Of a DNA stretch of 64,000 nt, positions 56,601-64,000 are shown piece by piece. A program made the position numbers and the translations under genes. The stretch covers positions 1,364,001 to 1,428,000 of the forward strand of contig JAALGY010000054.1 of assembly GCA_032358165.1 (NCBI GenBank), read 5' to 3'. Under the pieces are notes generated by a model that was not told the DNA's origin, did no database searches, and worked only from the letters and a program-made list of their open reading frames with translations. How positions within the stretch are numbered: position 1 is the first letter of the stretch; every line of letters starts with the position of its first letter. The stretch comes from Diplosphaera chodatii (lineage: Eukaryota; Chlorophyta; Trebouxiophyceae; Prasiolales; Stichococcaceae).

Positions 56601-58775
56601 GTTACCTGGTGAGTGCTGGCGCAGCCTGAGCCAGACGCTGGGGCTGCAGCAGCTCAGCGACGTCGAGGTTGCAGCAGGGTTGGGACATCAGGCGGCCACA
56701 GCACATGCAGGTCACCTGAACAGGCTGGTGATGGAGTCGACGGCGGTGCCGGCGGCCAGGCGGGCGCCCAGGCCGGCAAAGCCCATCACGCGGCCCAGCT
56801 GGCTGGACGGCACCCGCCGCTGCCGCAGCTTCCTGCGCTCCGCCTGCACCGCGGGCCCGACACGCTCAGGACACAGGCCCAGCTGTCGACCGGCCAGTGG
56901 AGTTGCGGAGCAGGAAAGGAGGTCTAGAGCTCTGTGATCGCGCCTGCTGCTTCGCCGCTGGCTGGGCTGCGGCGGCTGTGCCGGCCGCTCCACCGGCGAG
57001 GTCCGGCGCCAGCCGCGCTGACGCCCCGGCCAGACCCTCTGCCAGGCCCTCTGTCGCCGCTGCAGCGCCGCCGCTCTCGGCCCTCAGGGACGTGTCGGCC
57101 AGCGCGCTGCTGCGTGCTTGCTCAACTCCCTTCGTCACAAACAGCGGACAAGTTTGTCGGAACGTCTGGCTAGTCCATTTCAACGTTTATCTGGCTACGG
57201 ATCCAGCATGCCATAAGCTGACTATAGATGGGTTGTCAGGCGCGTCTCGTTGGCAAGCGCCCCTGCAATGCACGCAGTGCACGAGTACACACCTGGCCTG
57301 AGCTCCTGGAGGCCGCGGCAGCGGCTTGCGCCCGCTGCAGGTCTGCGATGGGATCGGGCCCGGGAACAGGCGCCTCAGAGACGGGCGGGCTGGCTGCCGG
57401 GTGCCGTGGCGGCGGCGGCACGCTGGCGGGTCCCGCCGGTGCTGCAGGGTGGCCTGGCGGCTGCGGCGGCGGGGCCCCGAGGCTGGCGAGGGTGGTGGAG
57501 AGGGAGGCGGACACGGCGGCCAGCGCCCCGCCGCGCGGCGCGGCCCAGGGCGCAAACGCCAGCCCCGGGCTGGACGCTGTGCGGGTGGCGGCTGCAAAGG
57601 GCGGGGGCATATGTGGCACCGGCGCATGCGGCAACGCCGCCTCCGCAGACCTTGCCCTTGCTGCGAGTGCACGAGGGGCAGCAGTGTTGGAAGCCTGCGC
57701 ACTTGATGTTTCGAGCTGTATGCAGCCATCTGAGCAGCGTGGAGCAGCTTTCATCCGGAGATTTCCAACCCTTTCAGTGAGTTGGCTGCATGATGCTGAG
57801 GTGACATCAGGACTGCTGACCGCGCTCTCACCAGCTTCTGCCTGCACCGCCGCTGTCTCTGATGACCGCTGCAGTGTCTCCGCTGTGCGCCTTGCATGCT
57901 GCGCAGTGGCATCTGCGGCGTCCTGGACTTGCTGCCGCGCAGCATCGGTCGCGTGCTGCAGGTCGGCCTCGCCACGCCTCAGGTTCGCATGCGCATCGTC
58001 CTGCGGGCATGATCGCCAAACGAAGATTCTGGGAGCAGTCGACCAGAGGTGCAAGCAACTATAGGTCTGCAGGCCGGCGTGCACAGCACCTGACAGCTGG
58101 CGCTGCAAGTGTTTTGAGCGAGATGGAGGTGCACACCTTCAGGGCGGCGCCTCGGGAGCTGACCCGGTTCATTGTCTCCCGCAGCTGCGGCTCGATGTTC
58201 TGCTGCGCCTGCTGCGCAACATGCTGCAGTGACTGCACCGCCGCTCGTGCCGCGTCCTTCGCCGCCCTCACGGCGTCGCGGGGCCCGCCCTGCGCCGCCT
58301 GGGCATGCTGCCGCACCGCGTTGTGTCCTGCCTCCTGCGCTGCTTTCGCCAGCTGCTGCCCCTGCCGCCGCACACACCCGAACAATCAGTACGTTCCAAT
58401 GGCGTCCGAATGCCGAGAAATCGAAAATCGAAGCCATGCAGTTGACAGGCCTCACGCAGTCGGGGTGCAAGGTTGCACCTGCGCTGCTGCTGCCTGCAGC
58501 TGCTGCCGCACATCTCCTCGAGCAAGGCCCTTCGTGACAGAGCTGCACATACACACGGAAGTCAGCAATGCGTCATGAGGAGGTGTGGAGTGTCCTTGTC
58601 ATTGTGGTCGATGGTCAGCTTGACTGATGAGGGACGACTGTGCCGCTGCCATATGCAGACGCTGCTTCAACCAGTGCAATGTCAAGTGCATGCTGCACCT
58701 GTCAGCGATGCCCTTGGCGGCCACTAATGCAACGCCACGGGCAACTCGCGTCAAGTCCTCAAGGAATCTTGCCAT
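53637..58775 (-). CDS. COQ8: COQ8-type ABC1 atypical kinase (ubiquinone biosynthesis) with long N-terminal region
   Basis: ABC1K/UbiB family protein of the mitochondrial COQ8 (ADCK3) class, which supports the coenzyme Q synthesis complex. ATG 58775 opens [20 protein letters not shown]. Ala/Arg-rich coiled and Pro-rich exons follow (about 57.3-58.4 kb), including [20 protein letters not shown]. The kinase part begins [20 protein letters not shown] (about 56750-56810), then ALKLGQML plus [19 protein letters not shown] (KxGQ motif, about 56250-56450), [10 protein letters not shown] (Ala-rich loop, about 56000), [20 protein letters not shown] (about 55800-55860), [20 protein letters not shown] and [11 protein letters not shown] (about 55200-55370), [20 protein letters not shown] (about 54750-54810) and [19 protein letters not shown] (about 53880-53930). 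It ends EEPAAAAA at TGA 53637-53639. SIQDDN and PRRQ spacing fit COQ8 rather than plastid ABC1Ks. The N-terminal extension is unusually long. Confidence 0.9.
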
Positions 58776-59079
58776 GCTCGCGCGAGATGCTACGTTGATG
58801 GGTGACAATCCGTGTGCAGATCAACTGGCGATGGCTTTGTCAAGGGAGCCATGCAGCCCAACGGCTGGCGCAGGTCGATGCCATGATGTGAAGAGCAGTG
58901 ATGTGGCCGCGTGCAGCAGTTTCTGCATCCTTGCATGTCGACGTCGCTGCCTCTTCAGCACGCTGCAGGGCATCTGCGTTCGTGGTGTACACACACCTCC
59001 TTTGTCGGCAGCCTTCACAATCGCCTGGCCTGGTGCGTGCACCCTCAGGATTGCCTCAAGTGTCCACTGTGCAGCGGGC
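58776..59079. promoter_or_regulatory. Divergent promoter shared by COQ8-type and DUF3253 selenoprotein genes
   Basis: About 304 bases between ATG 58775 (-) and ATG 59080 (+). A short plus-strand frame (MGDNPCADQLAMALSREPCS, about 58799) ends in a possible donor and could be an upstream exon or uORF of the selenoprotein gene. No TATA box was recognised. Promoter role is inferred from gene arrangement only. Confidence 0.4.
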
Positions 59080-59611
59080 ATGCCGCCGAGGGGCAAAGCA
59101 CGCGCTGCTGGCGTCGTCAAGCCCAGCAGGAAGGCACCGAGCAAGCGGCCAGCATCACGCCGTGTTGCAAGGGAGAAGCGGCAAGGACAGCAGCGGGAAG
59201 CGAAGCCGGAGCAGAGCGTTTCGGTTTCAGCAGACGACCTGAAACACCGGATCATGGAGCTCCTCGCTGCCAGGAAAGCTGGAGCTACATGCTGACCGTC
59301 CGACGTCCCGCGCAGCATGTCGACTGCAGGTGTGGCCAGCCGTGTTCACACATGTAGGTGGTGAGGTGTGCATATACAACACCATCGTACAATTTCCACT
59401 AGAAGGCGGCCTGTGATATGCTGCTCAAGAGATTGGCACATGTGCAGACTGGAGGTCGCTGATGCCGGCCACTCGGGATGCTGCTGTCGAGCTGGCACTG
59501 GGCGGCAAGTTGGATATCACGCAGAAGGGACAGACAGTGGACCCTAACAAGTTCAAAGGCCCCATCCGTTTACGGCTCAAAGCACCAATTGCACAAGACG
59601 TGCCACAGTGA
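59080..59611 (+). CDS. DUF3253 winged-helix-like selenoprotein (TGA 59293-59295 read as selenocysteine)
   Basis: Two exons, 59080-59329 and 59448-59611, join in phase 1 (CTGCAG|GTGTGG, acceptor GTGCAG) and predict 137 residues ending at TGA 59609-59611. The N-terminus is strongly basic (MPPRGKARAAGVVKPSRK, then KRPASRRVAREKRQG). The rest is a full DUF3253 (PF11625) domain: LKHRIMELLAARKAGATC, then an in-frame TGA, then PSDVPRSMSTADWRSLMPAT, AVELALGGKLDITQKG and VDPNKFKGPIRLRLKAP. As I recall them, bacterial relatives have GATICPSEVAR, so the TGA stands exactly where the conserved cysteine is. No GT lies between 59265 and 59297, so a local GT-AG intron cannot remove it. A SECIS-like hairpin follows the stop. 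The DUF3253 function is unknown; a Sec/Cys-dependent redox role is inference. An upstream 5' exon is possible. Confidence 0.85.
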
Positions 59612-59630
59612 CACGAATTAGCTTGGCGGC

Positions 59631-59698
59631 CTGAGATGACGGCACCGTCTGAAACTGCAGACTCAGCCGGCGGTGCCTGATACACATCATGTCCTCAG
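59631..59698 (+). promoter_or_regulatory. SECIS element (selenocysteine insertion sequence) in 3' UTR
   Basis: Helix I is CTGAG (59631-59635) with CTCAG (59694-59698). The non-Watson-Crick quartet is ATGA (59636-59639) opposite TGAT (59678-59681). Helix II is GGCACCG (59641-59647) with CGGTGCC (59671-59677), extended by TC/GG pairs. The unpaired AAA (59652-59654) opens the apical loop exactly 12 nt after ATGA, the spacing typical of eukaryotic SECIS. It lies 25 bases after the stop and about 340 bases after the Sec codon in genomic sequence. Confidence 0.85.
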
Positions 59699-60141
59699 CA
59701 TTTCGTGCATAGCTTGGCTTGACATGAATGTAGTTGTCTTCCCATCATGTGTTCAATGCATGTGCCCAGTGCTTTGAGGGTATTGCATCCATGTTTGCAG
59801 TACACATATGTGCCGATTGTTAGCCTTTGTTTCTGACTCTTGACATTAGGATAAGCATTCACCCATCTAGCACAGCAGCGCTTGCTGTGAGAAACGCTGT
59901 TATAACACTGCCATCCCTGAGGCATGCAAAGCATGCACGTCAATACTACATGCTCGCTTGCTCAAACACAGCCAAATCACGACGGAAGTTTATTTTGCAA
60001 CAGGCGCCCTTAAGAACACAGGCTGCACAGGCCTGCGTTGGCGCTGTAGCCACCGACAGGGCGACAGTGTGTGCCCCACGCCAGCCAGCTGAAGGCAGCA
60101 TAACTGGTACTACGAATTCCCACACACGGGCCAGGAGCAAG
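59699..60141. other. Convergent intergenic region
   Basis: About 440 bases from the SECIS to the B3-like gene stop. AT-rich relative to its surroundings; the remaining 3' UTRs should be here. No further gene was recognised. Confidence 0.4.
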
Positions 60142-63100
60142 CTACTGCGGCATTCTGCCCAGGAGCTGCGTGGCGTCCTGGTACAGGCGGTAGGCCCGCA
60201 GCGACAGGTCGTTCAGATTGTGGCCGCAGTACTCGAAGGCCTTGGTGGCAGGGGACACCGCCGTGCGGCCCAGCTGCAGGTTGAAAATTGCATGTTGTCG
60301 TTTTCTGAGCGGACACGACGGCATGTTGATGCCTGCCCACGCTGGCAAACGGTTGCACCAGCGGCTTGGATGGGCAGAGAGCATGCAGCAGCCACTGCAC
60401 TCGTACGATGTCGCGAGACGCTGCAGGAACCGACCTGGGGGTGCTCCCTGCGCACTGCTTGCAGCAGCTTGCTGAGCGTTTCGTATACCTCGCCCATGTA
60501 CACTATCCTGGCTGCAGGACACAGGGATGCATCAGCAGTGCTGCAGTGAGGCGGCAGCAGCAGCAGCAGCAGCAGCAACATGTTTGACATTCACCGTGCA
60601 GTAGTCACTTGCAGTGACACCACTGCATCTAGCCAGCAAAGTTCGACATTCGGGTAGGAGGGATAGTCCACTGTTGACGTGCAGCAAGGCGCTCACCATC
60701 GGATGTCACGGTGCAGGTGATGGTCACAGCAGGGCCCTTGTTTGTGCGCACCTGCTCGCAACAGATTGACAATGAGATACATTTCTGATCTCTAATATTT
60801 CACATGCCCAAATTTGCTGATAGTCGTGTCAGCAATGCAGGCATCTCACCACAAAAGCGGCTGCACCCTCTGCAATCCACCCGGCCTGAACCAGTAGCTT
60901 GATTGTTCGGGGTCCCGAAAAGCGTTCCTTTACAGCCTGCAGCACTGGCACACAACAATGACAATGCCATGGCATGTCCACACCGCATGGCCAGCGTGGG
61001 ACTGTTCAGCGTCGACACACTTGGCGCGATGGCCACACCGTCGCGATGTGCTCGAGGGTGGGGTCCTCTGGCAGCAGCTGTGGGCAGTCCTGCATGGGCA
61101 GGCTGCCAGAGAAGAGGCTGTCACTGCCCGCCGCTGTGCCAGAGTCACCTGCAACGCCATTCGACACCCCTCAACTTGTCGAGTTCACGACACAGTTGCG
61201 AGCACTCAGCGAAGCTGCTGTGCTACGAAGAAACTCGAGCAGTCAGACTGGCCTGCAGGAGTAGCGCTCACACCTTGGGGGGTGCCGGCATTGGCATCGT
61301 GCTGCGCTGTAGTCGCACCCACAGGGTTCAGTGCATGCGTGACAGGTGCGCTCGGCTGCGCGCCGTGGGCGCCTTTGCGTCTGCCAGCTGCCTGCGACGC
61401 CGGCTGCCTGCGCACCGCCCGGGGCTGCTGCTGCGCCTCCAGCAGCGCGTCCGCCAGGACAGCCGCCTTGCGCCTCGGGGTGTAGGTGGCGAGCGGCGCC
61501 GCCGGCACGTCGCTGCCGCTGTCTGCGCCGATGCGGCTGAGCTTGCGCCGCTTGGGCCGCTTGCGGCCGGTCCTCGCCCTGGCTCCCCTGCGCTGAGATG
61601 CAAGGTCGGCTGCAGTGGGCAGCGCCTGCCGGGGAGACGATGCCTCCGCGTCATGGTCCGCATCCGGCTCCGGCGTGACGCGGCTGCTCCTGGGCCGCTT
61701 GCAGCTGCGGCGTCTGCCATCGCCCGCCTCCGCCGGTGCTGGGGCTGCAGCCGCCGCGCCGCCCTGCCCACCAGAGCGGGCCGCGACCGCAGCGGTGCCG
61801 TCCGCTGCACCCTGCTCAGCTGGGCCACTGGGTGGCGCTGCAGGGGGGCGGCTGCCGGAGCCCCGGCTCAGGGCGCAGGCGGCCGCAGCATCTCCATCTC
61901 GTGCTGCACCACTGGCAGCACGCTCCGGCACGCTGCTGTGGCCAACGGCAGCAGGGCTGGGCAGCTCGCCGTGTCGTCCCTGAAGCCAGGCGTCTACATG
62001 TTGAGTCTCCTGTAACATCTGCCTGCATCATCTGAACGCATGCAAAGCATCAATGACTCAGGTCTTGAAGTGCTTTCCACCCTGTTAGTGGGCACTCACA
62101 TGAATGGCTTGCAGCAGCAGATCGTAACCGCTGTCATGCGCCCTGCTGCTGAGCTTGCGCATGCGCTGCGGCCGGCGCTGGTGAGCGCTGGCATTGGCCT
62201 CACTGCTGTTCGTCTCAGGGTGCTCAGTGGGCAGGGAGGCGGTGCGCAAGTGCTGCGGTCGCTGCACCTGCCGCTGCACTGGCTGCGACGCGCTGTGCGG
62301 CTGCCCGTCGGCTGTCCCGCCAACGCCTGTGGCGGCGACCACTGGCGGCCGCTCCGCCGCAGGCGTCGCATCCTGCTTGGCAAGCGCGGGTATTGAGCGA
62401 CCACCCTTGTGTGCACTGCCAATGCTGATGCGAAATGAGATTGCAATGAGTTTATGGCAGTCAGCACATACACTGAGCATGCCTGCCCACCGTTGAGTTG
62501 TCCGCGGTGCAACCATCGAGCGCTGCAGGCTCCTCATCCTGCAAGTCATAACCATTCTGATGCAGTGAGAGCAGCTAACACATACCCAGTATCAAGGGCA
62601 GTAAACAGGCACACATTGACAGTGCTATGTGTGTTCAATCAACTTGGGGCAGAGGAGTGCAGCCACCTGCAGTTGGCGCAAGCGCTTGGCGGGCCGGGCA
62701 GCTGCAGGCGTAGCAGCCCGCTTCTGCTGGCCACCCCGCCTACTGCCCAGCGCTGCAGCAGGCTGGCTGCCTTCCGTTTGGCTGCAGCCGCGTCTGCCGC
62801 GGGGCGAGGTTCGGAACCCGTTGCGTCCCCAGGTCGGCACGACGACAGCCGGCTGCAGGGCATCAGGTCCCGCGACAGCCACCTGTGCGCCGTCCGACTC
62901 TGCTGGCATCGAAGCTGCGGGCTCAGCTGCTTCAGATGATGGCAGGTCAAGCATCTGCGCAGGTGGCGAGGCTGCCGCCACCTCTTCAGCTGGCGCTGCT
63001 GCTGCGCCGTGGTCGGCTGGCTGCGGGGATGCGCTGCCCGGCTGCCGGACACGGATGTACAGCTCGAGCGGCTCCTGCAGCTGACCTGGCGAAGAGTGTG

Positions 63101-63800
63101 CGGCCCGCATGCGGATGACGTTGCCAGGCCGAATGCCCAGCTCTGCCGCCAGCTCGTGCCAGCCTGCCACAGAGGGCCTCTGGCCGTTTCCAGACAGCTG
63201 CGTCTCGTGGCGCCGGCCACCCGGCAGCACCATCGTGCAGGGTGTGACGCCCTTCCACAGCTGCCACTGCTGCACTGCTGCCGTTGGCAGGCTGAGCATC
63301 CGGTGCACGCTGCCGGGCACCCGCCACTCGACCTCGCCATCCGGCAGGATGGTGGCCTTGGACAACGGGTGCATTGCAGGCGGCAACGCATCCTGCTGAC
63401 CGGCCTCGTCCGCCGCTGGTGGTGCAGCATGCTGGGCAGCAGCATCAGCGGGCTCCTGTGGCCGCGCTGAAACTGCGTCTGCATCCAGGTCCGCCTGCCG
63501 CCCTGCAGGTGGGATGCTGTCGCTGCTGTCTGCCAGCAGCCGAGAGCGGGGCGACTCTGCTGTTTTTGTCCAAGACCCGGCTCGCAGATCGTCCTGTTGG
63601 TGACCACTGGCATCTGCAGCGCCTGGCACTGCCGAGGGCAGCATTGCCTCTGTGGCCATGGCTGACGACGCCCTGACAGGGGATGCCACATCAGCTGTGG
63701 TGTCAGCTGGCAGTGGGATTGCAGCCTCGCCAGGGGAGCCAGCATCGTTCTGGCTGGGAGCGGCAGGGGATGGGGTGCGCCCGTGCCAGGTGCTGTCCAT
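60142..63800 (-). CDS. B3-like DNA-binding nuclear protein with C-terminal RAMA-like domain
   Basis: ATG 63800 opens MDSTWHGRTPSPAAPSQNDA. The first exon (63800 to about 62670) is Ala/Ser/Pro-rich but contains a B3-like domain at residues about 157-252: EWRVPGSVHRMLSLPTAAVQ, GRRHETQLSGNGQRPSVAGW, HELAAELGIRPGNVIRMRA and LELYIRV. Basic AT-hook-like patches follow (SPRGRRG, RPAKRLRQLQ). Middle exons (about 62.1-62.45 and 61.2-62.0 kb) are disordered and very basic, with GRKRPKRRKLSRIG and RRRSCKRPRSSRV, clear nuclear-localisation signals. C-terminal exons encode RFSGPRTIKLLVQAGWIAEG (about 60850-60920), TNKGPAVTITCTVTSD (about 60710-60755) and RIVYMGEVYETLSKLLQAVR plus AFEYCGHNLNDLSLRAYRLY, ending at TAG 60142-60144. 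This end resembles a RAMA domain (AG.I, then ..DG.I.Y.G..Y.S.S). Both domain calls are by pattern. A GCA microsatellite lies in an intron near 60552. Confidence 0.7.
60552..60581. repeat. Short (GCA)n microsatellite in intron
   Basis: A run of about nine CAG/GCA triplets lies in an intron of the B3-like gene. On the minus strand it would read as poly-Leu, which creates a spurious hydrophobic ORF. Confidence 0.8.
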
Positions 63801-64000
63801 GACCTACACCCGACTTCTCTCAGCTCAGAGGCAATTCAGCCTGATATCTGAAAGGAGCAACATCAGACAATGTGCATCAAATACAGGATGCACGCGCAGA
63901 TGGGATCAAGGCGCTGGCCAGCCAGCCCAGGGTGAGGTGGCGTGCATTGGGTTTCGTTGCTCACCTCCGGGTCAGGCAACAATGGCAGCTCCAATCCAGC

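Follow-up and report, generated by a model that had tools for sequence, protein, structure and literature searches.

A 64,000-nucleotide stretch of Diplosphaera chodatii DNA (contig JAALGY010000054.1; hereafter the window) carries a two-exon gene that is very probably a functional eukaryotic selenoprotein gene, its TGA at 59293-59295 being decoded as selenocysteine (Sec). At the level of sequence, this assignment is supported by read-through coding, purifying selection, a SECIS element and the presence of the machinery genes, while Sec insertion itself, nucleic-acid binding and redox switching are inferred. On our best reading, the product, a winged-helix protein with a basic tail and perhaps a redox-sensitive nucleic-acid binder, would represent a new family of eukaryotic selenoproteins.

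A DUF3253 winged-helix gene with an in-frame TGA

The coding sequence is conserved on either side of the in-frame TGA (Table 1). When the exons are joined and the TGA is entered as Cys, they encode a 137-amino acid protein that matches PF11625 (DUF3253) over profile positions 3-80 of 81 with a score of 88.7 bits (E 2.9e-25; gathering cut-off, 22.1), in keeping with the claim of an earlier note on this DNA that the exon reads through the TGA into conserved DUF3253 sequence; NCBIfam gave no match for the protein. The solved DUF3253 member 2NS0 aligns across the TGA with a Cys opposite (E 1.6e-17), and this alignment, like that with the other homologues, places the TGA at the Cys of the CPSE motif, as the note had proposed. 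Its gene model also stood: the downstream exon joins in phase and runs to a proper stop, and from 59230 up to the TGA exon 1 contains no GT, so that a GT-AG intron starting there would be unable to excise the codon. A PF11625 profile search of the 85.6-Mb genome returned a single further place, L002 on contig C15, which shares the exon layout, the intron position and the TGA with the window gene (79% protein identity) and terminates in TAG.

Table 1. Features of the DUF3253 gene, in window positions
Feature	Position	Strand	Remarks
Exon 1	59080-59329	+	Basic N-terminal tail, first DUF3253 helix, Cys71, Sec codon
In-frame TGA, proposed Sec72	59293-59295	+	At the Cys of CPSE; same TGA in L002
GT-AG intron, 118 nt, phase 1	59330-59447	+	Same position in L002 (158 nt)
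Exon 2, remainder of the DUF3253 winged-helix domain	59448-59611, stop TGA 59612-59614	+	
SECIS element, presumed 3' UTR	59626-59693	+	Rfam SECIS_1, 28.6 bits

The DUF3253 fold is a winged helix, as seen in the solved 2NS0 and in a model of a bacterial-type homologue, with three helices and a two-stranded wing. The Cys/Sec position lies where helix 2 begins, and in both algal copies a Cys directly precedes it. After 2NS0, the next structural matches are Z-DNA/Z-RNA binding domains, with middling Z scores. The N-terminal tail is basic, with 15 K/R per 45 residues in the window copy (15-16 per 45-47 across both copies), and occupies the place where many DUF3253 homologues have a PF10013 (DUF2256) domain; in one metagenomic protein (P0008), DUF3253 is fused to PF14328.

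The Cys/Sec site and its possible function

DUF3253 is a large family, with 7880 of the 8000 scored candidates matching the domain (the best 120 of the 7880 were listed). Residue 72 is Cys in all 124 best-scoring homologues (P0003-P0126; P0001, the window itself, and P0002, which has no residue at the site, were left out), a set that favours the CPS motif through the search words and the profile. Conserved together with this Cys are Arg65, Arg78, Arg93 and Arg124 (124/124 each), as well as Trp85 (122/124). Since the count came from motif-favouring searches, we drew an independent, broader sample of 299 genomes from one bacterial phylum, which contained 36 DUF3253 domains in 35 genomes. After one domain that falls short of the site (L061) had been dropped, Cys was found in 22 of the 35 remaining domains and another residue in 13 (S 4, E 3, D 3, A 2, T 1), and we lowered the claim. 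The conserved Cys described by the earlier note thus holds for the best-scoring homologues but not family-wide, and the non-Cys homologues that it had named as counter-evidence do exist and weigh in part against it, so that a catalytic role is not supported across the whole DUF3253 family. The Cys thus characterises the branch to which the algal genes are similar, rather than the family as a whole.

The residue before the site is I or V in 118/124 and 26/35 sequences and Cys in both algal copies. Outside the alga, Cys occupies this position in 2/124 and 2/35 rows, and the four non-algal proteins with CCPS (P0004, P0005, L031 and L035) therefore have a vicinal Cys-Cys pair at the site of the algal Cys-Sec. 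In a tree of the short domain, built from 162 sequences over 83 columns, both copies form a clade with P0002 (support 0.995) that has P0015 and P0063 as neighbours and lies among Cys-bearing metagenome and bacterial sequences; a transferred bacterial Cys gene that later turned into a Sec gene would fit this placement. The full-length homologue search returned 11 proteins (P0002 is likely an algal exon-2 fragment), and none of the 16 candidates scored in the exon-1 search; neither search gave a Cys or Sec homologue from other algae that was readable across the site. Viral contigs, queried by protein and by DNA pattern, yielded no Sec or Cys form, and a scan of genome contigs gave one bacterial locus.

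As for gene neighbourhoods, a 3-methyladenine glycosylase lies near DUF3253 in a Variovorax plasmid record, and catalase, UmuD and a Y-family polymerase do so in an Arthrobacter plasmid record; DUF3253 matches occur in six plasmid records, and in the five examined there was no recurrent neighbour partner. Among 20 of 93 bacterial neighbour ORFs, chosen by length from 16 of 22 Cys-type loci and possibly including some wrong frames, eight had no Pfam match, two had GST domains, three were of VWA or Tad type (L026, L028 and L030) and the others differed. PADLOC gave no match for P0003.

On the selenoprotein reading, which we hold as very probable, the SECIS and the alga's own machinery direct Sec to the TGA of a single-domain DUF3253 protein whose N-terminal tail is rich in lysine and arginine. 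Sec72 then replaces the Cys at the N-terminal end of helix 2 and, since it follows Cys71, a vicinal Cys-Sec pair could form. In the mechanism that we tentatively consider most likely, nucleic acid or a partner is bound by the tail and the winged helix, and the pair acts as a reversible redox switch through a selenenylsulfide, or the start of the helix favours a reactive selenolate. A slightly less favoured possibility is that Sec belongs to an enzymatic or metal-binding site, the winged helix being a protein-interaction or small catalytic domain that does not bind nucleic acid. Winged helices often make protein contacts, and the Cys with the four conserved arginines and Trp85 could form such a site and not a surface for DNA, whereas the basic tail present in both copies and the Z-DNA/Z-RNA binding domains among the structural matches point the other way. 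This alternative contests only the mechanism and is compatible with a selenoprotein.

Probable decoding of the TGA as selenocysteine

Comparison of the two copies provides the strongest evidence that the sequence past the TGA is translated. Over these 55 codons, there are 18 synonymous and 8 non-synonymous changes, corresponding to a dS of 0.63, a dN of 0.068 and a dN/dS of 0.109 (a two-copy estimate from our own script, without a significance test), which argues against a pseudogene or a sequencing error. The tail evolves faster (dN/dS 0.60 over 47 codons). It is most improbable that the TGA is a true stop, leaving a 71-residue truncated protein or a decaying pseudogene: the window copy does also end at a TGA (L002 ends at TAG), but the constraint beyond the codon, the intron position kept in both copies and the SECIS that follows each of them speak against it, and such a product would be devoid of most of the domain.

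The SECIS that the earlier note had placed downstream of the gene was recovered with an E of 0.0085 (3001 bases, 4227 families), and L002 has its own (29.2 bits, E 0.0059), beside which Rfam matches nothing else in L002 at E values of up to 10. Both scores are below the SECIS_1 gathering score of 35, and both elements have the AUGA...UGAU core and the AA apical motif; in the spliced mRNA of the window gene, the AUGA quartet lies 222 nt downstream of the Sec codon. A genome-wide SECIS scan, which scored 133 of its 846 first-look candidates, listed four matches, namely L007 (45.1 bits), L008 (33.9), the window gene (28.6, E 0.0565) and L010 (20.6, E 8.7); four of 14 control genomes had a match at E up to 10, with none above the cut-off. 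Since the L002 element is missing from this list, the filter of the scan misses some. The L007 and L008 elements follow SELENOT-like exons with an in-frame TGA, whose joined pieces match TIGR02174 (SelT/SelW/SelH) in both cases and PF10262 in that of L007.

Of the Sec machinery, whose absence would have told against the note's proposal, genes for several components are present. Four tRNA-Sec genes score above the cut-off (as do genes in 5/14 control genomes), SepSecS is found at two places (3/14 controls pass) and euk_SelB_III (PF21208), which marks eEFSec, at two (0/14 controls); selD fragments at two places score below the model cut-off and constitute weak evidence, given that 14/14 controls match too. 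As an eEFSec marker, the selB model TIGR00475 was set aside: it hit 25 places, of which the best two are, by eye, what we take to be EF-Tu and eEF1A and the next six viewed (L020-L025) presumably HBS1-, eEF1A- or other GTPase-like. ARAGORN reports tRNA-SeC with anticodon TCA for two of the four tRNA genes, these two being identical, and misses the other two, L005 (1501-1600; G000:C33) and L006 (1501-1599; G000:C50). The latter are a second, diverged tRNA-Sec pair in which an insert of 14 or 13 nt, folding as a tRNA intron, directly follows the anticodon on its 3' side; minus the insert, each is an 86-nt cloverleaf resembling L003 and L004. In the accessible text of a 2017 paper, the Daphnia tRNA-Sec genes are called the first intron-containing ones in eukaryotes (PMC5330540), and a passage listing tRNA-SeC for four green algae makes no mention of introns (PMC12652284).

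Translation of the TGA as a residue other than Sec, by read-through or reassignment, is very unlikely in view of the SECIS in both copies, the machinery genes, the other SECIS-bearing TGA genes and the Cys of the best-scoring homologues. Nothing was found in favour of both TGA codons being assembly or sequencing errors, an explanation also foreseen in the earlier note and now extremely remote, as the same TGA is present in two diverged copies, which lie on separate contigs and whose surroundings share 77-83% identity.

The window is collinear with contig C15 over 57289-64000, at about 77-83% identity, and there are seven gene pairs (DUF3253, SepSecS, selD, eEFSec, SELENOT-like and two of tRNA-Sec), each of whose 14 members has a contig of its own. 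We read the pairs and the collinearity as the outcome of duplication of the whole genome, or of hybrid origin with two subgenomes that have diverged. The best matches of the rbcL on contig C55 are 8q04 and 1gk8, from Chlorella and Chlamydomonas, in line with a green alga.

Relation to known selenoproteins

The algal protein shares the domain along its full length, the CPSE motif and the GPIRLR strand with DUF3253 proteins such as 2NS0 from Rhodococcus and the DUF2256-DUF3253 fusions. Where the relatives examined have Cys or another residue, however, the alga has a TGA codon, together with a preceding Cys, an intron and a SECIS. SELENOT offers a parallel in its in-frame TGA, downstream SECIS and Cys homologues, and the SELENOT-like genes of this genome have the same layout; yet SELENOT is thioredoxin-like with a CxxU motif, while in the DUF3253 protein the fold is that of a winged helix and Cys and Sec are adjacent. 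Another algal selenoprotein has in common the algal host and a link to DNA; its fold includes a helix-turn-helix part, and it belongs to a different named family. Adjacent Cys-Sec is also shared with thioredoxin reductase (TrxR) and the CU families SaoL and KCU-star, which are different families; the pair of TrxR is C-terminal (GCUG), unlike that of the algal protein, which lies inside the domain. CU families such as these two appear in the accessible parts of a table of prokaryotic selenoprotein families, from which DUF3253 is absent (PMC13188914).

The earlier note knew of no described DUF3253 selenoprotein, and a literature search (subscription papers and preprints outside its scope) likewise found no paper naming DUF3253 or PF11625; nor, by title, did it give a winged-helix or helix-turn-helix selenoprotein in the part of the literature it reached. 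Sec is usually retained only where its reactivity matters, and its presence here therefore suggests that, in this large and functionally uncharacterised family, the residue is a functional one, making the site a handle for testing what the DUF3253 domain does. Families of eukaryotic selenoproteins are seldom added to: the available text of a survey of 137 algal species gives three new ones, DUF3253 not among them (PMC7539508). With a winged-helix selenoprotein, Sec would be known from a wider range of folds. It is a more doubtful proposition that this is the first selenoprotein family with a winged-helix, nucleic-acid-binding fold, acting as a nuclear redox sensor in which the helix-2 Cys-Sec pair controls DNA or RNA binding; if true, gene regulation or DNA repair in the alga would be tied directly to its selenium status.
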